A DNA stretch of 42,485 nt from a virus: IMG/VR virus record IMGVR_UViG_3300044707_000408, positions 1 to 42,485 of that record, one strand, 5' to 3'. Below, piece by piece: positions 1 to 42,485 of the stretch. The notes beneath the pieces are model-generated. The model had not been told where the DNA came from. It ran no database searches and was given only the letters and a program-made list of their open reading frames with translations. Positions within the stretch are counted from its first letter, which is position 1. Each line of letters begins with the position of its first letter. Made by a program: the position numbers and the translations under genes.

Positions 1-186
1 CACCTTTGCCTTGATGGATGTCCGCCCAGCCAGCCGGTCAAAAGTCAGCGACAGGCTGATTGAGAATCTGCCCGCGATGCTGGTTTTGCCAGCCTCGGCC
101 AGGTGCTGTTTGAGCAGATAGCTCGCCAGCTCCTGCGCCTTGGTCAGCTCCCGCTGTTCGAGCTCCAGTTGGTCAAAAGCTGATGT
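1..186. repeat. Terminal redundancy, left copy (186 bp)
   Basis: Bases 1-186 repeat at 42300-42485 with a single difference: A at 59 versus G at 42358. The repeat lies entirely inside a small coding gene in the middle of the replication region, not at a module boundary. It is therefore better read as the overlap of a circular contig, or of a permuted genome, than as a T7-style packaging repeat. Confidence 0.85.
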
Positions 187-454: not shown

Positions 455-1087
455 TCAGTACTGGTGGGGACCTGGATTAGCATCGAATCCGAACGGATCC
501 GCAGCAGCCGGGGCCAGGGTGGTGACGTCCGTGCCTTCCTCCGGCGCACCGAAGACGCCAGGATCCACGGCTTGCATCACGTACGGGACGTGGTTAAGAA
601 CACGCACGCCAAGCAGCTGCAGGGTTAACCCCTTGCCGCCAACCGGGTGGTCCCACGACCAAATGGAATAAGCAATCTTGCAAACCGAACCGTTGCCGAT
701 CGCCCTATCAACCGGCCAGGGATTCCCTTTGGCGTCTTGCACCATGGGAGGCGGTAATTCGGTGCCGCGAGATGTTGCAATGTCCCTGGAAAACGTGATA
801 CGGACAAGTCCGGTAGGGACTTCGATGCCTTGTTCGTTGGTAAGCGTTTCCCGCTTCCATTTCTTGCCGTTGGCCCCGTACTTGGCGTTACCGCCAAAGT
901 CATCCATGAATTGTTTATGCAGGGAGCCGATGAATTGCTTCGATATCGGGTCCCGCTCGGGGTCTGATTGAAGCAGCACAATTCCGTACTGCAATTTGTC
1001 GCCCGAATCGTTCTTGACCAGCTTGGGCCTCAGGACGTTTGCAAACAGGACCTCGCCGGCCGGGGTGACCAGCGTTTCGGATGCCAT
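455..1087 (-). CDS. Single-stranded DNA-binding protein (DUF2815 / T7 gp2.5-like)
   Basis: This 210-aa protein should coat single-stranded DNA during replication and recombination. What I see is a beta-rich protein beginning MASETLVTPAGEVLFANVLRPK, with GIVLLQ, the conserved block MVQDAKGNPWPVDRAIGNGSVCKIAYSIWSW around residues 130-160, then GKGLTLQLLGVRVLNHVPY, and an acidic/Pro-rich tail. The order (strand, 'G..V....Y', 'KG..L.L..V.VL') is what DUF2815 and gp2.5-type phage SSBs show. An in-frame ATG at 1129 would add 14 residues, but these overlap the palindrome at 1127-1146, so I prefer 1087. It follows the RNA polymerase as in T7-like phages. The acidic C-terminal tail with a terminal aromatic that gp2.5 uses for partner contacts is only weakly present (ends GPHQY). 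Confidence 0.8.
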   Translation of the reverse strand: MASETLVTPAGEVLFANVLRPKLVKNDSGDKLQYGIVLLQSDPERDPISKQFIGSLHKQFMDDFGGNAKYGANGKKWKRETLTNEQGIEVPTGLVRITFSRDIATSRGTELPPPMVQDAKGNPWPVDRAIGNGSVCKIAYSIWSWDHPVGGKGLTLQLLGVRVLNHVPYVMQAVDPGVFGAPEEGTDVTTLAPAAADPFGFDANPGPHQY

Positions 1088-1126
1088 GCTCTGCAGGGGT
1101 GTAGGGCTCCCAGATACTAGGGCATC

Positions 1127-1146
1127 CACTAGCGCTTGCGCTAGTG
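1127..1146. promoter_or_regulatory. Perfect 20-bp palindrome CACTAGCGC-tt-GCGCTAGTG
   Basis: Nine-base arms are separated by TT, with further CTAG copies either side (ACTAG at 1116-1120, CCTAG at 1147-1151). It sits between the RNA polymerase stop (1148) and the SSB start (1087). There is no T-run on either side, so an operator or processing hairpin is more likely than an intrinsic terminator. CACTAG half-sites also make up the inverted repeat at 5068-5097. Confidence 0.6.
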
Positions 1147-1147
1147 C

Positions 1148-3574
1148 CTAGCTGAACAGGTACGGGTTGTTGCCGATCCCCCCGATCTCCAGCGCCCCCC
1201 GTGGCGGCGGCGGCGGCAGCGCCTTAAGCCCTGCGTTGCAACGGATCTCCTCGGCAATGGCCTCCAGCCAGTCGGTGGCATAGAGGGCCCGGAACTCGTC
1301 GAGCAAGGTCCTCTGGAGCCAGCTGGCGTTGGCTGGATCGGTGGCGAAACAGTCGTGGTTGGTCAGCAACGGCACCCCCTGCTCTCCAGCCCTGTAGGCC
1401 ACGGCATGCACCAGGGCCGCGTCGAAGCTGTGCACCAGGTTGGCGGTGATGCTGCTGTTGGTCCGCCGGGCGGACAACTCCCCCTCCGGCGGGTCCATCT
1501 CGAAGGTGACGGCCGCGAGCTTGCCGAGGAGGTGCGTGCGGATCACGGATTTGCTGGGTGTCGTCCGGCCTACCTGCATGGGCCAGCCCATCGGCGCGGT
1601 CCACCGGATCTGCTGCTGGTGGCGGCCGACCACCTCGCGGCCCACATCGCAGAGCCAGCGGCGGAGCTGCAGCAGTGCTGCGGTTTCGGTGCCGAGCACC
1701 ACCCGCAGCCGGGCTTCCAGGTAGCTGCTGGGCCGATAGATCCGGCCTGCCCAGTCATCCACGGGCCCCAGCCGCTGCTGCAGCTGGTCCTGGATGCCAT
1801 CGGCCACGGTGCGGGAGGTGGAGCCGAACGGCGTGTGCATCACGGCGGCCTTCACCCAGCTGCGATCGATCCCAAGCTCCAGCCAGCCGGCTGCGAGTTG
1901 GTGGGTCCGCGCATCCCCGCAATTCAGATCGATCTCCAGCTGCTGCTGCAGTCGCTTCACCACAGCGGAATAGAGGTCATTCGGCCCGGTGCCGCAGACA
2001 TTGCAGAGCTCGGCCATCGCTCGATCCCGTAGCAGGGTTGCGATGATTCCGGCGCCGGAGCAGGTCTGATCCAGGCGTATGGGCACTCTGCGACCCATGC
2101 CCGGCTCAGACCATGCCCGCGCCATCTGCAAGAACTGCCATGGCTGCTTGGCCTCGCGCCACAAGTCGGCGTTGCCGATGGGGTCTTCGGCGATTTCCTC
2201 CAGCCGCCACATTTCATTGACGCCCCAGGTCAATCGATCGTCCCAGCTGCTGCGCGTCAGGCCCCAGTGCCCTGCTGCTGCCTTAAGAACCCAGTTCATC
2301 GCCTCGTAGTTCATCCCTTCGTGCCCGACCGTTGGCCCAGCGCCAAACCGCAGCAGTGCCTTCTGGTGGTCGGGGCCCTGGTGCGTGAGGCCTCGGTTTG
2401 CGGTGAAGGCTCGCCCCCTGAAGTCGAGGAAGTGAGCCTGATAGATCGGCCGGCCCACCAGCGTCTCGGCGGTCTGCAAAGCCCGCTCGATCGCCAGCCG
2501 CTTGGAGCTGTTGTCGCGCAGGTCTTGGTGGTGCCGGGCTTGGTTGCGCCGCCAGGCATCCTGTACATCCGGCGGCTCGCTGACGGGGAATGGCCCTACA
2601 TCGGGAACAGGGTCCCGCTCAACCGGGAACAGGCCGGGGATGCCCCGGTCCCATGCCTCGCGCTGAACGCGCAGCATCCACGGGTCCACCTCCAGTTGCT
2701 GTCGCTGGAGGATGTTGACGGCCGCCAGCTGCGGCTCGATCCGCCCCGACAGGTAACTGATGGCCGCGTGGTTGCGCGCCGCCCGGACCTGCACCACCGG
2801 TGAGGTGTTGGCCAGGTGGCCGCCGCCTACCAGCCCCTTCCAGGGGTTCGGCTCGATCACCATCGGACCCCGATTCGGCCGGAGACTGCGGGGAGGGTGG
2901 CGCCGGATGAAGTCCAGTGCCTTGGCTGAGGGCAGCACCCGCCACTGAGAGCGCCGGTTGGGTTGGTCGCTCTTATCGATAATTACCAGCCCGGTTTCCC
3001 GCCGCACCACCTCAAGCAGCAGCAGGCCCACGGTCGCCCGCTCCTGCCGTGTCCAGATCGGATCGGCCCCCTCGATGGGTCGTGCGGCGATCGCCAGCAC
3101 TGCCTTCCGCTTCTCTGCTGTGGTCCGCTTGAGCAGTCGATCCAGGCTGGCGGGGGCCCGCTTGCCGATTTCACCGGCTTTCACCTCGGCATCCACGGCC
3201 AGGCCGATGGTCAGGGCCAACCCCTGGAATGTGACGGCATGGGAAAGGCGATCCAGGATCGTGACCAGGGCCACCGCCGCGATTCGTTGCGGGCTGCCGA
3301 GGGCGGCCACCAGCGGCAGAGCCCCATAACCAGGGCCGCCCAGCTTTGGGTTCTCTTGCCAGCGGTAAAGGATCGCCTCGATCTCTCGGCTCACGGGATC
3401 AGCGAACTGCTGGAACAGGGCGGTTCCGTATTCGGTGCAGCTCTCCCGCCGATACCGGCGGAGCACCTGCCGCATCACCTGCGCTCGCTGCTCGGCATTG
3501 GTGGCCTCGCGCCATTCCAGCTGCTGCTGGAGGTCCCTGTCCACCGTGGTGGATTTGCTGCTTGCCGAATCCAT
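1148..3574 (-). CDS. T7-like single-subunit DNA-dependent RNA polymerase
   Basis: This 808-aa enzyme should transcribe the middle and late phage genes. The palm motifs are clear. Motif A is RLDQTCSGAG with catalytic Asp502. Motif B is RSWVKAAVMHTPFGST with Lys575, and motif C is TNHDCFATDP with Asp741. VHSFDAALVHA matches the T7 His784 region. Spacing matches T7 RNAP (D537, K631, D812; 883 aa). Two departures stand out: the residue aligned with T7 Tyr639 is Phe583 (codon 1826-1828), and that aligned with Arg632 is Ala576. The frame is open up to 3814, but that extension reads through the tRNA-Leu attP (WRNWHTQRTQKPL is a typical tRNA-Leu translation), so I take ATG 3574 (MDSASSKST). No strong Shine-Dalgarno is visible. 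The gene lies downstream of integrase and attP and upstream of SSB. Confidence 0.93.
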   Translation of the reverse strand: MDSASSKSTTVDRDLQQQLEWREATNAEQRAQVMRQVLRRYRRESCTEYGTALFQQFADPVSREIEAILYRWQENPKLGGPGYGALPLVAALGSPQRIAAVALVTILDRLSHAVTFQGLALTIGLAVDAEVKAGEIGKRAPASLDRLLKRTTAEKRKAVLAIAARPIEGADPIWTRQERATVGLLLLEVVRRETGLVIIDKSDQPNRRSQWRVLPSAKALDFIRRHPPRSLRPNRGPMVIEPNPWKGLVGGGHLANTSPVVQVRAARNHAAISYLSGRIEPQLAAVNILQRQQLEVDPWMLRVQREAWDRGIPGLFPVERDPVPDVGPFPVSEPPDVQDAWRRNQARHHQDLRDNSSKRLAIERALQTAETLVGRPIYQAHFLDFRGRAFTANRGLTHQGPDHQKALLRFGAGPTVGHEGMNYEAMNWVLKAAAGHWGLTRSSWDDRLTWGVNEMWRLEEIAEDPIGNADLWREAKQPWQFLQMARAWSEPGMGRRVPIRLDQTCSGAGIIATLLRDRAMAELCNVCGTGPNDLYSAVVKRLQQQLEIDLNCGDARTHQLAAGWLELGIDRSWVKAAVMHTPFGSTSRTVADGIQDQLQQRLGPVDDWAGRIYRPSSYLEARLRVVLGTETAALLQLRRWLCDVGREVVGRHQQQIRWTAPMGWPMQVGRTTPSKSVIRTHLLGKLAAVTFEMDPPEGELSARRTNSSITANLVHSFDAALVHAVAYRAGEQGVPLLTNHDCFATDPANASWLQRTLLDEFRALYATDWLEAIAEEIRCNAGLKALPPPPPRGALEIGGIGNNPYLFS

Positions 3575-3650
3575 GCCGTTTTTTGCTGCGGCAACAGGGC
3601 CGTTCGGCAGAAAATCCACCGGGGCCCTGTAGAGGTGAGTCCCCCTATCC

Positions 3651-3887
3651 TCACCCCAGCCGGGGAAACTGTTCTGCAGGGTCGCAAAGGTGAGCAGCGG
3701 TTTTTGAGTCCGCTGCGTATGCCAATTCCGCCATGCCCCCGCTAGTCCTGGCCTGGGTTCTCGGGTTTTCGGCTGCTGCTTCTGCTGCTTTGGAAAGCAG
3801 CAATCCGGCAGCAAGAAACGGCAACCAGAGAACGGGTGGACGTGTCCACAGTACGGCTGCGGCCACCTTTTGAGTTACGTCTTCCAT
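3651..3887 (-). CDS. Small membrane protein whose 3' end runs through attP
   Basis: This is a 78-aa frame starting at ATG 3887. The start overlaps the integrase TGA (TGATG) and has GGAGG about 8 bases upstream, so translation should be coupled to integrase. Residues 1-35 (MEDVTQKVAAAVLWTRPPV then LWLPFLAAGLLLSKAAEAA) contain one hydrophobic segment, followed by a polar linker. From about residue 50 onwards the codons are those of the tRNA-Leu fragment (GGMAELAYAADSKTAAH), so the C-terminus is dictated by the attachment site and would change on integration. The function is unknown. The good start signal favours a real gene, although the lower half may simply be read-through of attP. Confidence 0.5.
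   Translation of the reverse strand: MEDVTQKVAAAVLWTRPPVLWLPFLAAGLLLSKAAEAAAENPRTQARTSGGMAELAYAADSKTAAHLCDPAEQFPRLG
3694..3740 (-). other. Phage attachment site attP: 5' half of a tRNA-Leu gene
   Basis: Read on the minus strand, the 47 bases start GGGGGCATGGCGGAATTGG, continue through a D-arm, and include an anticodon arm GCAGCGGACTCAAAA followed by CCGCTGC, that is, a Leu(CAA) anticodon loop. The acceptor 3' strand, variable arm and T-arm (no GGTTCGA) are missing, so it is not a functional tRNA. It lies directly downstream of the integrase. Marine cyanopodoviruses such as P-SSP7 carry a comparable tRNA-Leu match next to integrase. Position 39 (A instead of the T that would pair with A31) differs from a perfect stem, so the exact identity core may end in the anticodon loop. 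Confidence 0.85.
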
Positions 3888-4894
3888 CACCCGGCCTCCA
3901 GCGCTTCCACGCATGCCGAGAGGGCATCGGTGCTCAAGTGCAGGTAGCGCTTAACGGCAGCCAGGGAGCTCCAGCCCCCGAAGGTCATCAACTGCACCAG
4001 TGAGATCCCCGCGCTGGCCAGCTTCGAAGCACAGGTGTGCCGGGTAGTGTGGATGGTCAGGCTTGAGTCGTGCGCGAGGCCGATGTGCTCTTTGGCCCGA
4101 TCGAATAGCCGGCGGTAGCGGTCGTAGCTGTAGGGGAACACTCTGGTGTTGGGCACCGGCACGCCGAAAGCCTTCACCGCATCGAGGGCCCTGGCAGTCA
4201 GCGGCACTGTGCGGGGGTGCCTGTTTTTTGTCTTCCAGAAGGTCACCCGGTTCAGCTGAAAATCAACATCGCCCCAACGCAGCCGCTCCACCTCTCCCCA
4301 GCGAGCGCACGATTCCAGCAAGAACACCAGCACCAGGGCCGCGCCGGGCTCCTCGATCTTCTGGAAGTAGGCGCACAGCTGGTCTCGCTCGCGGTCGCTC
4401 ATCACCCGGTCCTTGTCGCCGCCGGGCTTCAGCTGCTTGGGCATGGCCGGCCTGGTGGTGATGCGTCCGTGCAGCTGGGCATCCGAGAACATGGCTTTGA
4501 GTGCGCTGAGCTTCCGGTTGATGGTGGCCGGACGGTTGCCCTGGCCCTTGAGCGAGGTCCGCCACTGCTCCACCGCTGTGGCGTTGATCGACTCAAGCGG
4601 CGTCGAGGGCCCGAAGAACTCCACCGCTGCAGCGGAATAGATGGCGGCCGTTCGCTCATAGGCCAATCCAGCCCACCGCACCTGTAGCGATAGCTGCCGG
4701 GCCTGGGCGACGGTGAAGCCCTGGGCGTTCACCACTGGTTCGGCCATCAGGTGGTCCCGTAGCTCGCGGCGCTTTCGCTCGGCCTCGGCCTTAGTGCGGC
4801 CGCTGGCTTGCCGCCGCTTGCCGTCGATCGTGACATCAGCAATCCAGCGGGTCTGGCCGCTGGCGTCGGTTCGTTTCCGAACAGCTCCCGTCAT
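3887..4894 (-). CDS. int: Tyrosine recombinase, phage integrase
   Basis: This 335-aa protein should catalyse site-specific recombination between the phage tRNA-Leu attP and the host tRNA-Leu gene. It has an N-terminal arm-binding part (MTGAVRKRTDASGQTRW.ADVTIDGKRRQ), a core-binding helical domain (about residues 60-160, EQWRTSLKGQGNRPATINRKLSALKAMF), and a C-terminal catalytic domain. Catalytic residues visible are Arg in SCARWGEVERLRWGDVD, a Lys in the beta-hairpin WKTKNRHPRTVPL, the HTTRHT box, Trp in GGW (replacing the usual LGH), and the nucleophile Tyr in KRYLHLS. The length is typical. The start at 4894 has no Shine-Dalgarno; instead a CACCTACCCA leader lies 10-20 bases upstream. The gene is intact, so temperate growth is plausible. 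Confidence 0.95.
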   Translation of the reverse strand: MTGAVRKRTDASGQTRWIADVTIDGKRRQASGRTKAEAERKRRELRDHLMAEPVVNAQGFTVAQARQLSLQVRWAGLAYERTAAIYSAAAVEFFGPSTPLESINATAVEQWRTSLKGQGNRPATINRKLSALKAMFSDAQLHGRITTRPAMPKQLKPGGDKDRVMSDRERDQLCAYFQKIEEPGAALVLVFLLESCARWGEVERLRWGDVDFQLNRVTFWKTKNRHPRTVPLTARALDAVKAFGVPVPNTRVFPYSYDRYRRLFDRAKEHIGLAHDSSLTIHTTRHTCASKLASAGISLVQLMTFGGWSSLAAVKRYLHLSTDALSACVEALEAG

Positions 4895-4903
4895 GGTGTG
4901 GTG

Positions 4904-4914
4904 TGGGTAGGTGG
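4904..4914 (-). promoter_or_regulatory. CCACCTACCCA leader motif of integrase
   Basis: The minus-strand sequence CCACCTACCCA lies 10-20 bases before the integrase ATG. The same core (CACCTACC) precedes the starts of the genes beginning at 6618, 7141, 7402 (four tandem copies) and 7978. It resembles the anti-Shine-Dalgarno rather than a Shine-Dalgarno, so it cannot act as an ordinary ribosome-binding site. Confidence 0.5.
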
Positions 4915-6640: not shown

Positions 6641-6650
6641 GGGTAGGTGA
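6641..6650 (-). promoter_or_regulatory. TCACCTACCC leader motif
   Basis: TCACCTACCC lies 23-32 bases upstream of the ATG at 6618, one of five copies of the CACCTACC leader motif shared by the accessory genes. Confidence 0.45.
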
Positions 6651-7162: not shown

Positions 7163-7172
7163 GGGTAGGTGG
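7163..7172 (-). promoter_or_regulatory. CCACCTACCC leader motif
   Basis: CCACCTACCC lies 22-31 bases before the ATG at 7141, in a 75-base gap otherwise without recognisable signals. Confidence 0.45.
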
Positions 7173-7406: not shown

Positions 7407-7438
7407 CTAGGTGGGTAGGTGGGTAGGTGGGTAGGTGA
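7407..7438. repeat. Four tandem 8-bp units GTAGGTGG
   Basis: Units at 7407, 7415, 7423 and 7431 differ only at the ends (CTAGGTGG, GTAGGTGG, GTAGGTGG, GTAGGTGA). Read on the minus strand this is CACCTACC repeated immediately before the ATG at 7402. It is the multi-copy form of the leader motif seen singly before four other genes. Confidence 0.85.
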
Positions 7439-9951: not shown

Positions 9952-11877
9952 GTGGTAACCCTTCCGGTAGGTGGTGGGAACCCCCGTCCTGGCTTGCCTT
10001 GGCGGGGTTTCCCTTTGATCCCTGATTGGGAGCCGCTGCCGGAGGAGCTGTGGCCGGCCGATGCGTTTGCGGCCTACATCCTGCAGGAGCTGGGCCTGGC
10101 CGATGAGCCGACCAAGCAGCAGCTGGGCATCATCGAATGGGGGGATTCTGGTCCCCAGTTTCAGATCACTGTCGGTTTCCGGGGGGTGGCCAAGTCCACG
10201 CTGGCAGCCATCGATGCGATGCGGCGGCTGCGGATCGACCCCAAAAACGAGCGAGTGCTGATCGTTTCCAACACCGACGAGAAGGCGGCTGAGATCACCG
10301 GGCAGATGCTTGCCTGGACCCAGAGCATCGACATTCTGCGGTGCCTGCAGCCGCGGCCTGATGGCCTCAAGGCCGCCGGTGCGTTCAATGTGGCGCCGGC
10401 CCGGATCGGGGCGGAGCAGGCGCCTTCTGTGCGGGCCTCGGGGATCCTGGCGTCAGCGCTGACTGGGAAGCGGGCGACCTTCATCGTGCCCGATGACATC
10501 GAGACCCTGAACAACTCGATCACACCGCTCAAGGTCGAGCGGTTGTTCCATGCGATCAGCGAGCTCGAATCGATCATCAAGCCGGCGGATCGTGACTGGG
10601 ATGCAGCGAACCCTCCCAGCTTCGACATGGCCGACCAGGTGCGGCAGGTGTTCCCGCGGAAGATCTGCTACAAGGGCACCCCTCACCTCGAAACGAGCCT
10701 TTACTGGCGGCTGGTGCGCGAGCGGGGCTATGCCATCCGCTTCTGGCCGTGCCGGTATCCAGATCCCAGCAAGCCGGACGAGTGGGGGGCCTACGAAGGG
10801 CACCTCGACCCGCTGATTGCTCAGGAGGTGCAGGCGCATCCAGAGCTGGTGGGGATGCCCACCGATCCGGAGCGCTTCGACCACGAAGAGCTGCTGGGCC
10901 GCCAGAGCCGGCTGAGCCGCCAGAACTGGCAGTTGCAGTGGATGCTGAACACCAGGATCAGCACGGCCGATCGGTATCCAATCCGCCTCGGCGACCTGGT
11001 GGTGTTGCCGCTGGATGGGAAGGCGCTGCCGGAGTTGGTGGTGTGGTCCGACGATGCCGAGCTGCGTCACACCGATCTGGTGTGCGTGGGGATGGGCGCC
11101 GATCGGCACTACCACAAGCCCAAGGTGCTCGGCAGCTGGTTGCCACGGTCGGAGCACTGGAACGCCGGCCTGTTCATCGATCCATCCGGCCGCGGCGAGG
11201 ACGAACTGGCCTGGGCCGTGCTGGTGGAGCTGAACGGCAACATCTTCTTGCTCGAAGAGGGCGGCACCAGCGCCGGCTACGGGGAGGAGGTGCTGACGAT
11301 GCTGGCCCAGCGTGCCAAGCACTGGGGGGTCGTCACCGTGAAGGCCGAGTCCAACTTTGGCGACGGCATGTTCGCGGTCCTGCTGCAGCCGGTGATGACC
11401 AAGATCCATCGGGTCGTGGTCGAAGAGGAGCGGGTCAGCCAGCAGAAGGAACTGCGGATCGTGGACAGCCTGGCGCCGTTGATCCAGCAGCACCGGCTGA
11501 TCGTGGCCAAGGCGGTCCTGCAGCGCAGTTATGCCGAGGCCGAGCAGGACCCGGAGCACGGCCATTTGCGATCACTGCCTTACCAGCTCTCACGTATCAC
11601 GACGGAGCGAGGCTGCCTGGAATGGGACGACAGGGCGGACGTCCTTTCGTTCGGCGTGAAGCACTTTCTTGACCTGCTGGCGAAGGACCAGGAGAAGGAG
11701 CAGCAGCGGCGAGTGGATGAAGAGGAAGACGCCCTGCTGGAACTGTTCCTGAGCGATGACGCGAGCGCGATCGACACCCTGGTAATGGGCGGCCGGCGGC
11801 CTGCGCGGCGGGGGCCCCAGGGGGGCATCACCCGGGAGCCGCGGCCGATGGCCCAACCATCCGGGAAATCCAGATAG
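9952..11877 (+). CDS. Terminase large subunit (T7 gp19-like packaging motor)
   Basis: The frame is 641 aa from GTG 9952 and should form the ATPase/nuclease motor that packages DNA at the portal. Walker A is GFRGVAKST (residues 75-83), Walker B is TFIVPDDIE, and a coupling segment NSITPLKVER follows. The C-terminal nuclease shows acidic residues in FIDPSGRGEDELAWAV, VKAESNFGDG and DDRADVLSFG. T7 gp19 is 586 aa. The first 20 codons overlap a GC hairpin (9976-10013), so TTG 10015 (LIPDWEPLPEELW) may be the true start, giving 620 aa. Unlike T7, it lies on the opposite strand from the structural genes, and converges with the putative small terminase. Confidence 0.93.
   Translation: MVTLPVGGGNPRPGLPWRGFPLIPDWEPLPEELWPADAFAAYILQELGLADEPTKQQLGIIEWGDSGPQFQITVGFRGVAKSTLAAIDAMRRLRIDPKNERVLIVSNTDEKAAEITGQMLAWTQSIDILRCLQPRPDGLKAAGAFNVAPARIGAEQAPSVRASGILASALTGKRATFIVPDDIETLNNSITPLKVERLFHAISELESIIKPADRDWDAANPPSFDMADQVRQVFPRKICYKGTPHLETSLYWRLVRERGYAIRFWPCRYPDPSKPDEWGAYEGHLDPLIAQEVQAHPELVGMPTDPERFDHEELLGRQSRLSRQNWQLQWMLNTRISTADRYPIRLGDLVVLPLDGKALPELVVWSDDAELRHTDLVCVGMGADRHYHKPKVLGSWLPRSEHWNAGLFIDPSGRGEDELAWAVLVELNGNIFLLEEGGTSAGYGEEVLTMLAQRAKHWGVVTVKAESNFGDGMFAVLLQPVMTKIHRVVVEEERVSQQKELRIVDSLAPLIQQHRLIVAKAVLQRSYAEAEQDPEHGHLRSLPYQLSRITTERGCLEWDDRADVLSFGVKHFLDLLAKDQEKEQQRRVDEEEDALLELFLSDDASAIDTLVMGGRRPARRGPQGGITREPRPMAQPSGKSR
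9976..10013 (+). terminator. GGGAA-CCCC ... GGGG-TTTCCC hairpin, possible terminator
   Basis: The arms GGGAACCCCCG and GGCGGGGTTTCCC pair around a loop containing TGGCTTGCC, followed by a short CTTTGAT. It lies after the acidic repeat gene and overlaps the first codons of the GTG-started terminase frame. The poor T-run leaves termination uncertain. Confidence 0.4.
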
Positions 11878-35207: not shown

Positions 35208-36881
35208 TTATTCGGGGGGCGGGGGTTCGCCCTGCATCTGTTGGGCGGTGGCCGCAGCGGTGGCCAGCTTTGCCGGATCCGCCATGGGGCTTTGCATCAG
35301 CTGCTGCTGCTGCGCTGCCTGCGCCTGCTGTGCCTTGATCTCTTTGACCTTCTCCTCCGAGAGCACCAGGTCGATTGACTCAAGGCCCAGGCCATTGCTC
35401 AGCCGGGTAATGGCATCGCTTACATCGACGCGAGCGGCGACCTCATCGGGGCCCACGATCTTGGCCAGTGCCTCCAGGCCCTGGATGAACCGCATCATCT
35501 TCTCGAGATCGTTGCCACGGCCAACCGCGGCCAGGCCAACCGACACCACCGGCTTTACCAGATCCTCAGGCAGCTGGATCTTTCCTTGGCGGAGCAGGAC
35601 GTGGAGCTTCCTGTTGGTGTACGGGTACTGGAACTCAGTCGTGAGGATGCTGTAAATCCCGACTTGCCCTTCATCCATCTGCAGGGCCACCATCCGAATC
35701 TCCTCGGCGGTGGTCCGCTCGCTGTCCCGGACGTTGGACATCATGAAGGCCCGCTTCAGCGAGGCCTCCACCCGTTGCAGGCGGGCTTCCGCCACCACGA
35801 GGCCCTGCCCCCTGCGACCATCGGAGCCCAGCTCCTTCACGTCGTCTGGGTGGCCAATCACATACCCGCCGTTTCGACATGCCACCAAGTCTTTAATGCT
35901 GGTAGCCCCGCCAGGGCGGACCACATTCTTACTTTCGGCGGCGATCATTGCCCCCTCGGTCAGGGCCTGACTCAGGCTTTCGGCGGTCTGCAGTGCCGCC
36001 AGGCACCGGGCTTCGATGTAGCCGGGGCCGTAGTCGCAGCTGTCGATCCTCGTCGCTCGCAGCGGCATCCATGGGGAGATTTCAATATCGACCTCTTTGT
36101 CCTGTCCATCGATCTCTTCCCCCTTGCATTCCTGGCACCACTTGACCTTGCCCTTGGTGTAGTCCCACTCCACATGGGTGTAGACCTTGATCACATCCTC
36201 CTCGTCCATCACCTTGTTGGAAGCCAATGGATCGGGGCTGTAGTCCTCGCTCTCCTCGTCCTTGAGTAGGCCCAGGTGCTCGGCCACCACCTTCGGCAGG
36301 CTGTCCTCGGTGAAGCTCTCGCATATCACCAGCTCCAGCGGCCGGCCCATCGGGTCCCGCCTAATGCAGTAGCGGTTCAGGTGGTAGCAGGTCAGTCCGT
36401 CCTGCTCGTCGTCATAGAGAACGATGTTGCCGGGGCCGATCAGATGCACCATCGCCTCCAGCGCCACGGCGCGATCAGCGGAGCTGTTGATCTCGCGGAG
36501 TACCGACTGCTCAAGTGCCAATAGTCCGCGGTCGAACTCCACCATGGATTTGGCGATGTCCGCCTCTGGGGTCCCGGCCTGCCGGGCATCACTGATCAGG
36601 GTGGCCCGCTGCTTCTCGTCAATCGTGTATTTGAAAAACGTCTCGGAAGCCGGCATGACCGCCAGCAGCCAGCGGCTTGCCAGGTGCTGGTGGCCCTCGG
36701 CGCCAATGTCATTCCATGGCAGCGGGTAGGTTTCCGGCTGGCCCTGGTCCGGGTCGTTGGCGGCCGGCACCAGCCAGGGCAGCGTTAGCCGGCAGGACCG
36801 CCGGGCACGCGACAGCCAGATGTCACGATCAGACCGGAGTTTTTCGTAGCGCTGCTCGGCTGGCCCTTGCGCGGTCTCCAT
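35208..36881 (-). CDS. Portal / head-tail connector protein (T7 gp8-like)
   Basis: This 557-aa protein starts at ATG 36881, two bases after the previous stop; the frame upstream overlaps that gene. Characteristic segments are EKLRSDRDIWLSRARRSCRLTLP, then WNDIGAEGHQHLASRWLLAVMP, FGNIVLYDD-like GPGNIVLYDDEQDGLTCY, SESLSQALTEGAMIAAESKNV, and the long helix ERTTAEEIRMVALQMDEG. T7 gp8 is 536 aa. The dodecameric ring docks the terminase and the tail. The Gln/Ala-rich tail (QAQQAQAAQQQQLMQSP) is common in the family. Confidence 0.94.
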   Translation of the reverse strand: METAQGPAEQRYEKLRSDRDIWLSRARRSCRLTLPWLVPAANDPDQGQPETYPLPWNDIGAEGHQHLASRWLLAVMPASETFFKYTIDEKQRATLISDARQAGTPEADIAKSMVEFDRGLLALEQSVLREINSSADRAVALEAMVHLIGPGNIVLYDDEQDGLTCYHLNRYCIRRDPMGRPLELVICESFTEDSLPKVVAEHLGLLKDEESEDYSPDPLASNKVMDEEDVIKVYTHVEWDYTKGKVKWCQECKGEEIDGQDKEVDIEISPWMPLRATRIDSCDYGPGYIEARCLAALQTAESLSQALTEGAMIAAESKNVVRPGGATSIKDLVACRNGGYVIGHPDDVKELGSDGRRGQGLVVAEARLQRVEASLKRAFMMSNVRDSERTTAEEIRMVALQMDEGQVGIYSILTTEFQYPYTNRKLHVLLRQGKIQLPEDLVKPVVSVGLAAVGRGNDLEKMMRFIQGLEALAKIVGPDEVAARVDVSDAITRLSNGLGLESIDLVLSEEKVKEIKAQQAQAAQQQQLMQSPMADPAKLATAAATAQQMQGEPPPPE

Positions 36882-36882
36882 C

Positions 36883-37284
36883 TCAGGTCCCGATGTTGAG
36901 CCCAGCGCCGGCAGCCGTTGCGGCACTTGCCGGAGCGATTGTCAGTCCGGCGGGTTGTTTCTTCCGGGGTTTGGTCGGCTCAGTCGTCAGGGTTGATCCA
37001 GGGGCTGCGGCTGCGGCTGCGGTAGTGGCGTAGGGCCCTGCCTGTGCCGCAGCCCTTTCGGCCGCCATGGCTGCGGCCTGTTCCGCCAGTGACGCCCTGG
37101 CTCGATCGGCCTCGGCGTTGGCCGCGGCAATTTGCTGGTCCAGCTGGCTTTGCATCCGCTGGGTGGCCTCTTGTTGTTGTTGTCGCGCCGTTTCCATCCG
37201 CTGGTTATGCGCGTTGATCTCTTCTTGGCTTGGGCCCTGGTAGACGATCTGCGGCGCCTGCGGACCTCCTCCCCCGAAACACAT
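36883..37284 (-). CDS. Small virion-associated protein with MC-x-GGGG start (copy 1)
   Basis: This is a 133-aa protein from ATG 37284. It begins MCFGGGGPQAPQIVYQGPSQ, continues as a Gln/Ala coiled coil (NQRMETARQQQQEATQRMQS through AEQAAAMAAERAAA), and ends GAGLNIGT. The next gene upstream has the same N-terminal (MCMGGGG) and C-terminal (GAGLNITVGY) signature, so the two look like diverged paralogues. The location just before the portal fits small head-tail or ejection accessory proteins (T7 gp7.3 region). The Met-Cys-Gly start is not a lipobox. Function unknown. Confidence 0.65.
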   Translation of the reverse strand: MCFGGGGPQAPQIVYQGPSQEEINAHNQRMETARQQQQEATQRMQSQLDQQIAAANAEADRARASLAEQAAAMAAERAAAQAGPYATTAAAAAAPGSTLTTEPTKPRKKQPAGLTIAPASAATAAGAGLNIGT

Positions 37285-37695: not shown

Positions 37696-37905
37696 TCAGC
37701 CCCTCCCAGTGTCGAAGGAGGGCGGGTAGACCGTGGGCGCATCGGCGTCGCTGGTCAGCAGCTCGGCGCGCAGCCACCGGACCACTTGAACAGAGCCGAT
37801 CTGCTGCTGAATCTCGCGGTCCGTGGCCTCAGGGTGCGGGGCGATGTCGGGCCAAAGGGCCATTGCTCTTTCGACCAGCTCTTCCGCATTGACGGGCTTT
37901 GACAC
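37696..37905 (-). CDS. Hypothetical 69-aa protein
   Basis: It starts at GTG 37905 (MSKPVNAEELVERAMALWPD). It is acidic and helical, with 'TDREIQQQIGSVQVVRWLRAELLT' in the middle and a Pro-rich tail (DADAPTVYPPSFDTG). There is no membrane segment. It is the first gene of the virion module below the exonuclease, with two promoter-like motifs (37901-37920 and 37925-37942) at and above its start. The start codon lies within the first of these, so a promoter there would make a nearly leaderless transcript. Function unknown. Confidence 0.6.
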   Translation of the reverse strand: MSKPVNAEELVERAMALWPDIAPHPEATDREIQQQIGSVQVVRWLRAELLTSDADAPTVYPPSFDTGRG

Positions 37906-37920
37906 TACAGGGCTGCAGAA
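37901..37920 (-). promoter_or_regulatory. Secondary promoter-like motif GCAGCCCTGTAGTGTC
   Basis: It shares CCCTGTAGT with the 14370 site but lacks the leading CACC and the ATG end, and overlaps the GTG start of the 69-aa gene. Recorded as a weaker copy next to the better one at 37925-37942. Confidence 0.25.
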
Positions 37921-37924
37921 TTTA

Positions 37925-37942
37925 GCCCCATGCTACGGGGTG
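37925..37942 (-). promoter_or_regulatory. Candidate phage promoter CACCCCGTAGCATGGGGC
   Basis: The motif is nearly identical to that at 13862-13882 (loop GTAGCAT between C and G runs), at the boundary between the exonuclease and the virion genes. The exonuclease TAG is inside the motif. Its location fits a late promoter driving the portal-scaffold-capsid block. Confidence 0.5.
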
Positions 37943-38715
37943 TCGTCAGGTGGGTTCCACAGGATTGGCAATTCTCGATCCACGTCATACTCGCCAGCCC
38001 GCAGAATCCGAGCCAGCCTCACCTGGGTGAGGGCATCCTTCCGAGTCAGGCCGGCCTTGGCGAAAGCCTTCAGCACGGCTGCCCACATCGCGGCAGCATC
38101 GGGCTGCCCGGCCAAGATGCCCTCCGCCTTGACCTTGCCGATGCCAGGGCAGCCGGGATAGTTGTCCGTGGTGTCGCCGATCAGCGCCTGCGAAAACACA
38201 TTCAGGTCGGCCTGATGCTCGGAAACCTCCACGAACTCCGTGCCTCGAAGGTGCAGCCCAGGGATCCCCAGCAGGTCCTTGTCCTCTGAGACAATCACAT
38301 CGCCAGGGCGGCAAAAAATCCCCATTACATCGTCGGCCTCAACCTCAGCCAGCATGGCGATAACGTGTGGTTCCGCATTTACCACGTTCCAGCCCCGCAC
38401 CTCTCCGGCAGCGATCACCCACTGAAGCAATTCGCTGTAGCCGGCCGGCTTGCGGCTGGCCTTGCGGTTTGCCTTGTAGAGGGAGAACAGGGAATAGCGG
38501 AAGCTGGCGGCAGTGCCGAGGCACAGGTGCAGCTGGTGGTCGGGCAGCGCGTCGCGGACGGATGCCAGAAAATCCTGAAAGCGGGCCTTTGCCTCGTCGT
38601 GACGGCAGGTATAGGTCCAGTCACCCGGCGCCCATTCGATTTCGTATTCGGCCACGGCGGTGCAGCGGCGGAGATAGAGCTCCGCATCTACCAGGGCCCT
38701 GGGTTGGTCGGTCAC
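37933..38715 (-). CDS. 5'-3' exonuclease (T7 gp6-like, FEN/XPG superfamily)
   Basis: This is a 260-aa protein from GTG 38715, which overlaps the upstream stop as GTGA; the frame above that is inside the previous gene. It begins ALVDAELYLRRC (first metal-binding Asp), then WTYTCRHDEAKARFQDFL, and YSLYKANRK-like FSLYKANRKASRKP. Catalytic acidic residues occur in AEVEADDVMGIF and VIVSEDKDLL. A helix-3-turn-helix DNA-binding loop follows: LIGDTTDNYPGCPGIGKVKA. T7 gp6 removes RNA primers and degrades host DNA. Its position at the end of the DNA-metabolism genes matches T7, although no DNA polymerase precedes it here. Confidence 0.9.
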   Translation of the reverse strand: MTDQPRALVDAELYLRRCTAVAEYEIEWAPGDWTYTCRHDEAKARFQDFLASVRDALPDHQLHLCLGTAASFRYSLFSLYKANRKASRKPAGYSELLQWVIAAGEVRGWNVVNAEPHVIAMLAEVEADDVMGIFCRPGDVIVSEDKDLLGIPGLHLRGTEFVEVSEHQADLNVFSQALIGDTTDNYPGCPGIGKVKAEGILAGQPDAAAMWAAVLKAFAKAGLTRKDALTQVRLARILRAGEYDVDRELPILWNPPDDTP

Positions 38716-39026
38716 GACGCCACCTCCGGCGGTACCGGGCGGCCCTGCAGCCAGGCCTGAACCTTGGTCAGCACGTCGGGCGAGACGTGCTTGGAGCGAA
38801 ACGGAAGCCAGCAAGATCCATCCCACTCGCCATCGGGGAGCCATGCGGCGCATTGGTCCAGAAGCTTCCGCTTTCTATTGGTGCGAACGAACCTCACAAG
38901 CCACCGGTGATAGAGCCCAGGGCAAGCGGTCACGACGATGCGGGTGAAGCCGATCTGTTCATCGAGAATTGAGTGGATTTCAGGCATCAGAGGATGGAGT
39001 TGTAGTTGCTTCGGCAGTTCGGTCAT
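38712..39026 (-). CDS. Hypothetical 104-aa protein before the exonuclease
   Basis: It starts at ATG 39026 (MTELPKQLQLHPLMPEIHSI) and overlaps the exonuclease start by four bases. The sequence suggests a compact alpha/beta fold with many aromatics: IVVTACPGLYHRWLVRFVRT, a basic NRKRKLLDQ, then LPDGEWDGSCWLPFRSKHVS and LTKVQAWLQGRPVP. There is no membrane segment. Coupling to the exonuclease suggests a role in nucleic-acid metabolism. No family recognised; the basic loop could contact DNA. An in-frame start at 39062 is possible but would overlap the 30-aa frame below. Confidence 0.6.
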   Translation of the reverse strand: MTELPKQLQLHPLMPEIHSILDEQIGFTRIVVTACPGLYHRWLVRFVRTNRKRKLLDQCAAWLPDGEWDGSCWLPFRSKHVSPDVLTKVQAWLQGRPVPPEVAS

Positions 39027-39048
39027 GCCAATTCGATCTCTTACTCCG

Positions 39049-39141
39049 CTAGTCATGCGCAAAAGCTGAAATAATTAGAAGGGCTAACAGAAGAGAAGCC
39101 TCTACTGCCACTGCAAAGCGAATCAGGTCGCTGGTTGTCAT
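39049..39141 (-). CDS. 30-aa single-pass membrane peptide
   Basis: ATG 39141 to TAG 39049 encodes MTTSDLIRFAVAVEASLLLA then LLIISAFAHD: a short polar start and a hydrophobic helix of about 20 residues with one Glu. It fills the only gap between the genes at 39167 and 39026. No Shine-Dalgarno is visible; the leader is A/C-rich (CTAACCAACCACC). Tiny membrane peptides of this kind occur in many phages and cyanobacteria. Real but undetected genes of this size are common; chance is possible. Confidence 0.4.
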   Translation of the reverse strand: MTTSDLIRFAVAVEASLLLALLIISAFAHD

Positions 39142-39166
39142 TTGAATTGCTGGCAATGGTGGTTGG

Positions 39167-39928
39167 TTAGAACAGCGGTCCTTGTGTGCGCCTGGCGTAT
39201 GCGGCCAGGTCGCGAAAGTGGCGGTCACGGAACTGGGGGTGTTCCTCCAGGAACCCGATGCTTGGCAGCACGGGGGGAGCAGGGCTGGGCCCGTTGAACT
39301 GCGTTACCGACCACAGCCCCTGCCGCAGCCCTGTTTCCAGCACGTTCCTGGTGGCAAATGGCTTGCTCCATGGCAGCTGGGAACCTGGAGAATCGGTGCC
39401 AGTGGCAGCCCCCTGGAGATAGGCCTGCCACTTGGCATCGGTGATGCGGGTGGTGTCGTCCGGGTCGTCCTCCTGCGCCGGCGGCAAAGCCTCCGGTTGC
39501 AGCAGGTGGCCAGGTGGCCGGGGCAATCGCTCGTAGGCCCTGGCGACGATGGGGTCGGGGTAGGGCTCCACCGACTGCACAGCAGGCGGCAGTTGATCGA
39601 GCTGCTCGGCGGTGAACTGCACCGACCTCGGCAGATCGGGGCGGGGGCCCCAGCTGCGGTTGGCTATGCCGTTCTCACACCGATAGAGCGGCACCATCAG
39701 CTGCCGCCACGTCGGGAAGCGCAGAAACTCATCGTCGGTCTCCTGAATCCAGCGCTCGCAGGTCCACAGGAATTGCGGCGTGTTGACCTCCGGGAATTCG
39801 GAATTGAAGCTGACAAATTTCAGCTTGAAATCCTCGGGGGTCCAGGTGACCTCTGACCTGGTCCTGATGTGGCGCTCGATCATGCGGCAGCCACGGGTGA
39901 AGGCCTCCGGATCAAGCAGCACCGGCAC
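39167..39928 (-). CDS. Hypothetical 253-aa protein, possible helicase-loader-type replication partner
   Basis: It starts at ATG 39928, overlapping the zinc-ribbon gene by 17 bases. Residues 1-90 are helical and resemble the body of phage P-type loaders: FVSFNSEFPEVNTPQFLWTC then ERWIQETDDEFLRFPTWRQL, where 'F...P.P..W..L' precedes 'MVPLYRCENG'. Then comes a conserved-looking NRSWGPRPDLP, followed by a Pro-rich, probably disordered half, and a C-terminal motif PSIGFLEEHPQFRDRHFRDLAAYARR. No nucleotide-binding or catalytic motif is present. In T7 this locus carries primase-helicase and DNA polymerase. A helicase-loader role is inference from position and general shape only. Confidence 0.6.
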   Translation of the reverse strand: MPVLLDPEAFTRGCRMIERHIRTRSEVTWTPEDFKLKFVSFNSEFPEVNTPQFLWTCERWIQETDDEFLRFPTWRQLMVPLYRCENGIANRSWGPRPDLPRSVQFTAEQLDQLPPAVQSVEPYPDPIVARAYERLPRPPGHLLQPEALPPAQEDDPDDTTRITDAKWQAYLQGAATGTDSPGSQLPWSKPFATRNVLETGLRQGLWSVTQFNGPSPAPPVLPSIGFLEEHPQFRDRHFRDLAAYARRTQGPLF

Positions 39929-40532
39929 CCTCCAGCATTTGTCGGATCGCCAATGCGGCCGGATCGCCTGCGGGGGTGGCGGCAGTCGATTTCAGGGTTG
40001 CGTAGCTGCCGCGCAGGTACTCAGGCTTCAGGGCCTGCCAGCCGTGCTCGATGCCGGCATCCACCAGGGAGTGGGCTATGTGGGACTGGCTCTGTTTGAC
40101 CAGGTAAACCACCCGACCGGCCGACAAAGTAAATGCCAGTTGAGTCCATGTGGCTTGGGCCCCGTGCTTGCCCCAGCGGCTTTCGTTCCACCACGTCAGC
40201 ATTTTGTCTAAAAGCTCCGGCGGCAGGCCATCGCGCTCGATGTCCGCGAGCCAGTGCTCGGCGCCAGTGATCGGATGCAGCCGAGCCGGAGCGGGGCCGG
40301 CGGCCCGCTTCCGGGGTGCGGCCGGTGCCGAGGCCACCGGCTTCGGATCGGGCACGACGGCCAGAGGCACCGGCTGCCAAGCCCCGTCCTGAAACGCCTC
40401 GACCCGTTGAACTGTGCTGAACGATTTGCCGCACCCCCGGCAGGCGTGGCGGCGGCGGATGGCGTTATCGCTTGGGCTCTCGCGGGTTTCGAGCACCCGG
40501 TTGCGATGGTGGCCGCAGTGGGGGCATTTCAT
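39912..40532 (-). CDS. Zinc-ribbon protein with NrdR-like N-terminus and replisome-organiser-like C-terminus
   Basis: The product is 206 aa; the ATG at 40532 overlaps the previous stop (TGATG). Residues 1-45 are a four-Cys zinc ribbon: MKCPHCGHHRNRVLETRES, then RRRHACRGCGKSFSTVQRVE. This is very close to the start of NrdR repressors, but the ATP-cone domain is absent. A Pro/Ala/Lys linker follows. The C-terminal helical region (LLDKMLTWWNESRWGKHG, ATWTQLAFTLSAGRVV, SLVDAGIEHGWQALKPEYL) resembles the tails of phage replication organisers, with 'W..W' and 'a...AI.NGW.GL.P'. It could bind DNA and recruit the host replisome, or be a transcription factor. Confidence 0.65.
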   Translation of the reverse strand: MKCPHCGHHRNRVLETRESPSDNAIRRRHACRGCGKSFSTVQRVEAFQDGAWQPVPLAVVPDPKPVASAPAAPRKRAAGPAPARLHPITGAEHWLADIERDGLPPELLDKMLTWWNESRWGKHGAQATWTQLAFTLSAGRVVYLVKQSQSHIAHSLVDAGIEHGWQALKPEYLRGSYATLKSTAATPAGDPAALAIRQMLEGAGAA

Positions 40533-41734
40533 CAGACCTTGCTCCAATCGACCTTGATGGCCGGGTGCAGGGTGCCGGCGACCAGGGCGTCGGCGACACC
40601 TATGCGGCTCAGTGGTTTCATCCGCTCTGCAATTTCATCGCGCAGCCGCAGCAAGTCGGAGGTGGCCGGCGCCTGTTGCTTGGCAGCAAAAAACACTGCC
40701 TCCTGTTGTGCGGGGAGGTAAGCCTCATGGGTGTCCCTCAGTCGGACCGGCCTCCGATCCACGGCAGAGACGCCCGCCACGGCCTTGTCGCTGATCTCGA
40801 TGCCTGGAGGCTCCGGCACCATCGCCGGCTTGATCGCCAGCAGGGCCTCCGGGGCCTCTCCAACCGCAGCCTCCAACTCTTCGAGGTACATGGCTCGAAC
40901 TGTTTTGTCGGCCTCCTCCTGGTCCCTTGCTGCGTCGATTGCTTGCTGCCGTGCCAACGCAGCTTCGGCAGCATCGGCCCGAGCCTGGGCCTCTGCCGCC
41001 TTGCGCTCCGACTCCTCCACCGCTGCGATCGCAGCAGCATCGGCCTCTTCCTGCGCCTTGCGGACCGCTTCGGCGACGGCTTCCTGCTGTGCCTTGATGC
41101 GTGCGTCCTCGGCTTCCTTCTCCTTCTGGATCCGCTGCTGCTCGCGCAGCTGGGCCAGCTCGGCAGCGGCGACCTCGTCGGCCAGGGCCTTGGTGTGCGC
41201 GGCTTCGAGGGTGCGGATCGTCTCCAGCAGGGCGGCGGCGGCCTCTTCCTTGAACTCCTCCAACCCGTCGATGTCGGTGGCCTTGGCCTCGGCCAGCCAG
41301 TAGCCAATGGCTTCGGACGTGGCGCCGAACCCGACATTGCCGTAGGCCCTGATGCCGTCGATCACATCGCGGTGCCGCCGCACCCGATCGGCTTCGGCCT
41401 TGGCGATGGCATCGATCGCATCTTGGTGCGGCTTGATCAGCGCCGCCACCTGATCCTTGAGCTCGGCGGCCTGCTCGTCGACTTTGCGGCCATAGGCCAG
41501 CGCGTAGGACTTGGCATCGGTGCGGGCCGATTCGATCCTGGCGTTGAGCTTGCGCTGGGAGAAGATGTAAGAGCGGGCCTGCTTATTGCCCTTGGGGTCG
41601 GCGTAGTCGAACGTGACATCGGCGGCCTTGGCTTTTGCCTCGGCGATGTCGTCCAGCAGCACATGAAACTGGCTGATAACGATGGGACTGTGCGCGGCGG
41701 CCAGGGCCTCGGGTGGTGGTGCGGTGGTGGTCAT
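40532..41734 (-). CDS. Long coiled-coil protein (400 aa)
   Basis: It starts at ATG 41734 (MTTTAPPPEALAAAHSPIVI), overlapping the RuvC-like gene by four bases. Residues 20-150 are charged helices (DDIAEAKAKAADVTFDYADP, LNARIESARTDAKSYALAYG), and residues 150-290 form an uninterrupted Ala/Glu/Lys/Gln coiled coil. The C-terminal 100 residues include GIEISDKAVAGVSAVDRRPV and SRIGVADALVAGTLHPAIKV. Proteins with this order, an N-terminal helical domain, a long coil and a small C-terminal domain, occur beside recombination genes in many temperate phages. No enzyme motif. Likely a scaffold for recombination or replication complexes. Confidence 0.65.
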   Translation of the reverse strand: MTTTAPPPEALAAAHSPIVISQFHVLLDDIAEAKAKAADVTFDYADPKGNKQARSYIFSQRKLNARIESARTDAKSYALAYGRKVDEQAAELKDQVAALIKPHQDAIDAIAKAEADRVRRHRDVIDGIRAYGNVGFGATSEAIGYWLAEAKATDIDGLEEFKEEAAAALLETIRTLEAAHTKALADEVAAAELAQLREQQRIQKEKEAEDARIKAQQEAVAEAVRKAQEEADAAAIAAVEESERKAAEAQARADAAEAALARQQAIDAARDQEEADKTVRAMYLEELEAAVGEAPEALLAIKPAMVPEPPGIEISDKAVAGVSAVDRRPVRLRDTHEAYLPAQQEAVFFAAKQQAPATSDLLRLRDEIAERMKPLSRIGVADALVAGTLHPAIKVDWSKV

Positions 41735-42213
41735 TTCGTTTGGTTGAGAACGTGGTGTGCGTAGACGGCAACGGCAAGTGCTGCCCACATATCCTTTTTG
41801 ATCCCGTATGTAGGGCCGGGATTCTTCTTGACACCAGCGGGGCCCAGTAAATCAATCAATGCCTGGCGAACATTGGAATCCTTGGCCCGAGTGAAACCGC
41901 ATAGATGCAGCTTGATGTCCTTGCGGAAATAGCGAGCCGCTAGGCCCTCGTCGTCGAAGGCCTCCTCGAAGCGACCGATCCAGGTGCAGGTCTCGAAGAC
42001 CTCCGCTCCTACAGGCATTCCGTAGGAGGCAATCATCTCGATTGCTACGTGGGGCCAGCCGGGGGTCCCGAGGGTCCTGTTCCACCAGCGAGCCTTCAGG
42101 ATGCTGGCAACATGCTTGTTGCTCTCGATGCTGGCCTCAAGGATCTTTCGATCAGGGCTAAGCAACACAAGGGCCGATTGCACCGGGCCTGGGTCAATCG
42201 CCAGGATGTTCAT
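41731..42213 (-). CDS. RuvC-like Holliday-junction resolvase / RNase H-fold nuclease
   Basis: This is a 160-aa protein from ATG 42213. The N-terminal strand MNILAIDPGPVQSALVLLSP carries the first catalytic Asp (residue 7). The second acidic residue is in HVAIEMIASYG. The C-terminal pair is in YGIKKDMWAALAVAVYAHHV, where RuvC proteins have 'D..DA.a.A'. Spacing and length suit phage RuvC-like resolvases. It should cut branched DNA before packaging, replacing T7 gp3 endonuclease I. It is linked by four-base overlaps to genes on both sides. Confidence 0.8.
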   Translation of the reverse strand: MNILAIDPGPVQSALVLLSPDRKILEASIESNKHVASILKARWWNRTLGTPGWPHVAIEMIASYGMPVGAEVFETCTWIGRFEEAFDDEGLAARYFRKDIKLHLCGFTRAKDSNVRQALIDLLGPAGVKKNPGPTYGIKKDMWAALAVAVYAHHVLNQTK

Positions 42214-42485
42214 ACATCCCCGCTTATGCTCTCGAATAGACCGCCCTGGCCATGCTGCGCAAATTCCACCAGCTCGTCGGTGTACTTGCGGGAATAGGCC
42301 ACCTTTGCCTTGATGGATGTCCGCCCAGCCAGCCGGTCAAAAGTCAGCGACAGGCTGGTTGAGAATCTGCCCGCGATGCTGGTTTTGCCAGCCTCGGCCA
42401 GGTGCTGTTTGAGCAGATAGCTCGCCAGCTCCTGCGCCTTGGTCAGCTCCCGCTGTTCGAGCTCCAGTTGGTCAAAAGCTGATGT
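42210..42485 (-). CDS. Small hypothetical protein, 3' part (continues from the left edge)
   Basis: This is the 3' portion of the 109-aa gene that starts at 240: codons from the right edge to TGA 42210-42212, ending in ...YTDELVEFAQHGQGGLFES. Residue 61 is Thr (ACC) in this copy but Ile (ATC) in the left copy, because of the single difference in the terminal repeat. The stop overlaps the RuvC-like start. Confidence 0.75.
   Translation of the reverse strand, partial: TSAFDQLELEQRELTKAQELASYLLKQHLAEAGKTSIAGRFSTSLSLTFDRLAGRTSIKAKVAYSRKYTDELVEFAQHGQGGLFESISGDV
42300..42485. repeat. Terminal redundancy, right copy (186 bp)
   Basis: This matches bases 1-186 with one substitution (G at 42358 versus A at 59). 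See the left copy for interpretation. Confidence 0.85.

Follow-up and report, generated by a model that had tools for sequence, protein, structure and literature searches.

The virus record IMGVR_UViG_3300044707_000408 of the IMG/VR database comprises 42,485 bp of DNA, here referred to as the window, and represents a complete T7-like virus. At the place where T7-like phages carry gp4 and gp5 it contains a pair of adjacent genes, coding for a zinc-ribbon protein (ZnR) and for a protein of 253 amino acids (aa), p253. A preliminary description of the sequence had placed four proteins between the single-stranded DNA-binding protein and the 5'-3' exonuclease: a RuvC-like nuclease, a coiled-coil protein, ZnR and p253. 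All four are present; two further open reading frames (ORFs), of about 110 and 116 aa, had been left unlisted. Read in the direction of transcription across the joined ends of the record, the module and its surroundings are as follows:

1148..3814, minus strand: T7-type single-subunit RNA polymerase (RNAP), 888 aa (phrog_414, E 1e-127; PF00940, E 1e-43)
455..1129, minus strand: gp2.5-like single-stranded DNA-binding/annealing protein (SSB; phrog_112, E 1e-14)
42210..42485, minus strand: ORF of about 110 aa, no assigned function; the open frame runs on over the junction into the left end
41731..42213, minus strand: RuvC-like Holliday-junction resolvase, 160 aa (phrog_1770, E 9e-15; orthologues in relatives)
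40532..41788, minus strand: coiled-coil protein (CC; phrog_1376, a family of unknown function, E 2e-13; conserved in relatives)
39912..40547, minus strand: ZnR (Zn_ribbon_NrdR, PF22811, E 2e-13); likely start Met6 (40532)
39167..39928, minus strand: p253, member of a 77-member family; overlaps ZnR by 17 nt
38712..39062, minus strand: 116-aa protein, kept in most close relatives; overlaps the exonuclease start
37933..38853, minus strand: 5'-3' exonuclease, T7 gp6-like (phrog_107, E 6e-44; PF01367/PF02739)
1..186: left terminal repeat copy, 186 bp (closure of a circular or permuted genome assembly, or a physical repeat)
42300..42485: right terminal repeat copy, 186 bp, mate of 1..186; the ORF spanning the joined ends is open

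The probable start of the coiled-coil protein is an internal ATG near 41734. The 116-aa protein has no family match in Pfam or PHROGs. The exonuclease corresponds to the N-terminal domain of DNA polymerase I (Pol I) alone, without a polymerase domain, and NCBIfam Pol I models cover it with their N-terminal part only.

The ends meet within the replication module, on the stretch from the SSB gene to the RuvC-like gene, and a segment lost there would mimic the absence of enzymes. We therefore considered whether gp4 and gp5 had dropped out during assembly, for which the position of the contig ends speaks. However, the first and last 186 bases repeat directly (185/186 identical), closing the genome at 42,299 bp, and several independent IMG/VR contigs run uninterrupted in the order integrase-RNAP-SSB-RuvC-CC-ZnR-p253-exonuclease-portal, most of them with the 116-aa gene. 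Because of the terminal repeat and the relatives that are contiguous over the junction, a missing segment, which the preliminary description had named as a point that would overturn its view, is excluded, and the chance of an assembly artefact is negligible.

Absence of DNA polymerase and primase-helicase

In six-frame profile searches of the window no match was obtained to DNA_pol_A (PF00476), DNA_pol_B (PF00136), DnaB_C (PF03796) or Toprim_2 (PF13155). The searches were controlled with genomes in which the enzymes are present: DNA_pol_A, DnaB_C and Toprim_2 each gave matches in a relative or a control phage, and DNA_pol_B did so in control genomes. Scans of nearly all long frames against Pfam and/or PHROGs likewise revealed no DNA polymerase, primase or helicase; family-C polymerase and DnaC/IstB were not separately searched in six frames. 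Given these null results and the working controls, we rejected a hidden polymerase or helicase of the families covered, and the earlier statement that the genome has no visible DNA polymerase or primase-helicase was borne out. A family-A DNA polymerase is common but not universal in Autographiviridae.

We then extended the comparison to a set of 30 whole genomes or records, the window included. The RNAP is encoded in 30/30 and p253 in 26/30. None of the 26 p253 genomes (the window and 25 others) matches DNA_pol_A, DNA_pol_B, DnaB_C or Toprim_2. The four genomes without p253 (S37C6, S31C1, P-SCSP1c and CRP-114) all contain DnaB_C and Toprim_2, so that within the set each genome has either p253 or the primase-helicase, never both or neither. 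DNA_pol_A is confined to the control CRP-114 and DNA_pol_B occurs in 0/30. Because the genomes were gathered through p253 or its module, this tally is a measure of consistency and not of frequency. The loss of both enzymes is a lineage trait and not a peculiarity of one genome, and the 25 further genomes supply the related phages with the same replacement that the preliminary description had proposed to look for. A literature search that excluded subscription journals and preprints returned no paper reporting that these phages lack both enzymes.

One of the relatives is an isolate. S-SRP02 (MW822601) is a freshwater cyanopodovirus isolated on Synechococcus SR-C1 (PMC8790148). It shares with the window the order integrase-RNAP-SSB-nuclease-ZnR-p253-exonuclease-virion, with identities of 41% (RNAP), 38% (ZnR), 44% (p253) and 48% (portal), and likewise lacks Pol A/B, TOPRIM and DnaB_C. 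In contrast to the window, RusA replaces RuvC, the coiled-coil gene is missing and a beta-clamp-like gene is present. This clamp-like protein (10903-11607) matches PF02767 weakly (E 0.0065) and has homologues in 4 other genomes, giving 5/30 in total and none in the window; it would fit the use of host DNA polymerase III (Pol III).

The paper on S-SRP02 sets up an S-SRP02-like cluster and takes "DNA polymerase" for a marker; neither "primase" nor "helicase" appears in it as a word (PMC8790148). The gene p034 (22389-23129 of the stretch examined), labelled "DNA polymerase I" in both record and paper, contains the 5'-3' exonuclease domain only, since S-SRP02 lacks DNA_pol_A and, in the homologue from the window, no more than the N-terminal part of Pol I models is matched. 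A gene of S37C6 (20750-21481 of the stretch examined) with the same annotation likewise comprises the exonuclease domain only. The labels hide the absence of the polymerase in S-SRP02 and S37C6.

The isolate also bears on the idea that such phages are satellite-like and draw their replication enzymes from a co-infecting or co-resident phage. The lack of replicative enzymes of their own would agree with this, but S-SRP02 shares the module and, according to its description (PMC8790148), was isolated on Synechococcus SR-C1, and the complete virion set is kept. We regard this possibility as very remote.

The ZnR-p253 gene pair

The gene of p253 directly follows that of ZnR in 167/167 loci (the loci overlap, so that the independent contigs are fewer). 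The two genes mostly overlap by 4–25 nt, with 17 nt in the window; the overlap of the lambda genes O and P is 4 nt (39582-39585). In Oinezvirus S37C6 and Nohivirus S31C1 (AP013546, AP013547), which have related RNAP and virion proteins and no Pol A/B, the same locus holds a stand-alone zinc ribbon of the NrdR type, 56–64 aa long, followed by a T7-type primase-helicase. The TOPRIM-DnaB protein thus stands where the window has the C-terminus of ZnR and p253. The pair and the T7-type primase-helicase alternate at one locus. The stand-alone ribbon is either the precursor or a remnant of ZnR; its ORFs lie at 23557-23820 in S37C6 and 23-217 in S31C1 (of the stretches examined), directly upstream of the primase-helicase.

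The N-terminus of ZnR is a ribbon of the NrdR type (PF22811, E 2e-13), and a structure match over 46 residues gave Z 6.3 at a root-mean-square deviation of 2.1. The four ribbon cysteines are kept in 68–69 of the 71 ZnR members. A true NrdR repressor was considered and rejected, as the ATP-cone is absent: TIGR00244 covers only positions 1–46 of 147, with 36.9 bits against a cut-off of 124.65. The C-terminus is a helical domain, predicted mostly with a local distance difference test score (pLDDT) above 90, and has the invariant motifs WW..R and E.GWQ.

It is this C-terminal domain that points to replication initiation. The profile phrog_678 ("replication initiation O-like") is matched by 19/71 members with a best E of 0.0016, and for two members a closer look placed the match in the C-terminal part of the profile. 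We aligned the ZnR C-terminus by hhalign with the C-terminal domain found in 75 initiator-like phage proteins; among these are several O proteins encoded directly upstream of a lambda-P homologue. The probability was 56% (E 1.1e-4), and the score of 27.1 exceeded all 200 column-shuffled controls (maximum 22.1). ZnR appears to resemble initiators weakly but measurably, a controlled lead that is short of proven homology. At their N-terminus O-like initiators have a winged-helix DNA-binding domain, which ZnR lacks, carrying the NrdR-type ribbon instead. On this evidence ZnR is probably a replication initiator. The earlier proposal of an initiator gains moderate support from the O-like C-terminus; the winged helix and iterons that would complete the likeness were not found in ZnR or around its gene.

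The 77 members of the p253 family share 21 invariant positions. In the AlphaFold2 model residues 1–120 form a globular domain with pLDDT mostly above 90, followed by a low-confidence linker. A tail helix carries the motif LTxxxWxxYL, present in slightly relaxed form in 62/77 members compared to 0.06 in shuffles. For the window protein no match was found in Pfam, PHROGs, NCBIfam or PADLOC. Comparisons with Pfam (77 members), PDB sequences, the lambda-P family, one G39P homologue and PDB folds (Foldseek) yielded nothing, and no homologue was detectable outside the lineage. A library of viral folds returned the protein's own orthologue and faint matches, one of them named "replisome organizer" (E 8.7), which was not used. 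The helicase loader suggested before was not shown by homology. As lambda P and G39P, compared as a control, also fail to detect each other, the null result neither supports nor excludes a loader. Going by gene order, overlap and architecture, we see the chances as evenly balanced that p253 may act as a helicase loader or DnaB adaptor.

We also asked whether ZnR and/or p253 could itself be a primase, helicase or polymerase of a kind not recognised before, as primases can contain zinc ribbons and p253 has a confidently predicted domain without a known match. However, both proteins are small, their invariant positions include neither an Asp/Glu cluster nor a Walker motif, and the ZnR C-terminus resembles non-catalytic initiator domains. 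We consider a new enzyme highly unlikely.

Probable replication by the host replisome and history of the locus

T7-like phages are the classic example of phages that supply a minimal replisome themselves. Since the RNAP is found in all p253 genomes and the replicative enzymes in none, the combination of T7-type transcription and virion with host-dependent replication, as put forward in the preliminary description, is well supported, and dependence on the host for replication is very likely. That the lineage replicates with the host replisome and that the ZnR-p253 pair recruits it is the explanation we favor as a whole, with a probability of roughly 0.55. ZnR would bind the phage origin via its zinc ribbon, and its O-like C-terminal domain would work with p253, which would bring in DnaB, the helicase of the host, and the phage DNA would then be copied by the primase and Pol III of the host. 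The phage SSB/annealing protein, the exonuclease and the RuvC-like resolvase may form and resolve concatemers, and the phage RNAP would handle transcription.

The lambda-type O/P pair offers the closest pattern for such a module: two adjacent, overlapping genes, with an O-like C-terminal domain encoded next to P. The systems differ in the winged helix of O versus the zinc ribbon, in the iterons, which were not found here, and in the lack of P or G39P similarity in p253. Several observations weigh against the favored explanation. The likeness of ZnR to initiators is weak (best PHROG E 0.0016; hhalign probability 56%), no multi-copy iteron family was detected in or near the ZnR gene (37900-42485 searched), and p253 resembles no known loader in sequence or fold. 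Furthermore, with sampling through p253 or its module the tally is silent on how rare the opposite combination is.

Replication might instead depend on recombination only. The annealing protein, the exonuclease and the RuvC-like protein would make D-loops from which the host restarts its replisome, and ZnR and p253 would serve in regulation or host takeover. The genes for SSB/annealase, exonuclease and RuvC-like resolvase do flank the pair, and neither ZnR nor p253 has a proven replication homologue. This account nevertheless meets an invariant pair located exactly at the primase-helicase place of relatives, its strict alternation with that enzyme in the genomes searched, and the resemblance of the ZnR C-terminus to initiators. 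We judge it unlikely.

Precedent for a missing polymerase comes from the MPP-C cyanopodoviruses (P-SCSP1 group), which have no DNA polymerase and keep the primase-helicase; it has been proposed that they recruit Pol I or Pol III from the host (PMC9860041). Like the window they are genomes of T7-like picocyanophages in which no DNA polymerase is encoded. They differ in the T7-type primase-helicase (PF03796 and PF13155, present in P-SCSP1c and absent here) and in the absence of ZnR and p253. The same suggestion (PMC9860041), together with the RNAP kept in 30/30 genomes, agrees with an initiation in T7 style, in which an RNAP transcript primes the origin, host Pol I or III extends it and helicase is recruited without a dedicated loader. 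This would leave the conserved ZnR-p253 pair unexplained, and Pol I is not processive. We hold it to be quite unlikely.

In the portal tree the MPP-C phages are the nearest marker relatives of the p253 genomes: the earliest branch is P-SCSP1c and the next S37C6/S31C1, followed by a single group of all p253 genomes (support 1.0). This order implies that the polymerase was lost first and the primase-helicase exchanged once. In the RNAP tree, S37C6/S31C1 stand beside the S-SRP02 group within the p253 genomes (54-genome group, support 1.0), a topology that needs a reversal or two exchanges. The two trees disagree on whether S37C6/S31C1 lie inside or outside the p253 group, and hence on the direction of the exchange. 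The best reading is that the DNA polymerase was lost, as in MPP-C, and the primase-helicase was exchanged for an initiator and a loader-like pair partner recruiting the host replisome.

Relatives of p253 occur in at least 117 IMG/VR stretches, in the isolate S-SRP02 and in the fosmid phage S38C3, as well as in contigs of two Cyanobium bins and of one bin labelled Sphingomonadaceae. In the Cyanobium contigs p253 has 72% and 43% identity. Given these bins and the Synechococcus host of S-SRP02, we infer picocyanobacterial hosts, and the window phage probably infects freshwater picocyanobacteria. In its widest form our proposal is that a lineage of T7-like cyanophages, widespread in fresh and marine waters, gave up all replicative enzymes and may capture the host DnaB-Pol III machinery by a zinc-ribbon O-like initiator and a new helicase-loader family (p253), in a module that alternates with the primase-helicase; we give it an even chance.

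Polymerase loss was already known from MPP-C. Added here are the loss of the primase-helicase, its replacement by ZnR-p253 and the presence of this trait, hidden, in the isolate S-SRP02. MPP-C shows that a T7-like phage can lose its polymerase; in the present lineage the primase-helicase has disappeared as well, and a compact pair of genes stands where it was. The question of the MPP-C authors, how a T7-like phage replicates without a polymerase, thereby receives a specific answer that can be tested, and p253 suggests a new family of helicase-recruiting proteins acting on cyanobacteria. Such phages are missed or misplaced by surveys that look for DNA polymerase or rely on the "DNA polymerase I" label of S-SRP02.

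Other genes and repeats of the window

Outside the replication module we mapped the following genes:

3887..4894, minus strand: tyrosine integrase (phrog_1, E 1e-50; PF00589)
9952..11877, plus strand: T7-type terminase large subunit (PF22530, phrog_38)
35208..36926, minus strand: portal (head-tail connector), first of the virion block (PF12236)

The retained T7 virion block further comprises capsid, tube, nozzle, internal proteins and a T7-type tail fibre (PF21703, PF17212, PF25675, PF03906). Pfam and PHROG matches confirmed that RNAP, exonuclease, SSB and virion block are all retained, as had been described. With its single-subunit RNAP and T7-type portal, capsid, tube, nozzle and terminase the genome belongs with the T7-like phages (Autographiviridae). 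Searches for RNAs and tRNAs found none, and PADLOC identified no defence or anti-defence gene among ten proteins examined.

A short repeat, ACCTACCC, is located on the minus strand at 4905-4912, 6641-6648, 7163-7170 and 7413-7436, 11–23 nt ahead of the ATG of four early minus-strand ORFs. At 7413-7436, the site of the GGGTAGGT tandem, it forms three copies in a row. The window contains 8 exact copies compared to 0.61 expected, and the repeat is also found upstream of the integrase in several relatives. It is possibly a leader, promoter or operator element, or an origin iteron. In the tail-fibre gene, eight direct repeats at a spacing of 30 bp (16162-16491) correspond to a 10-residue repeat of the protein.

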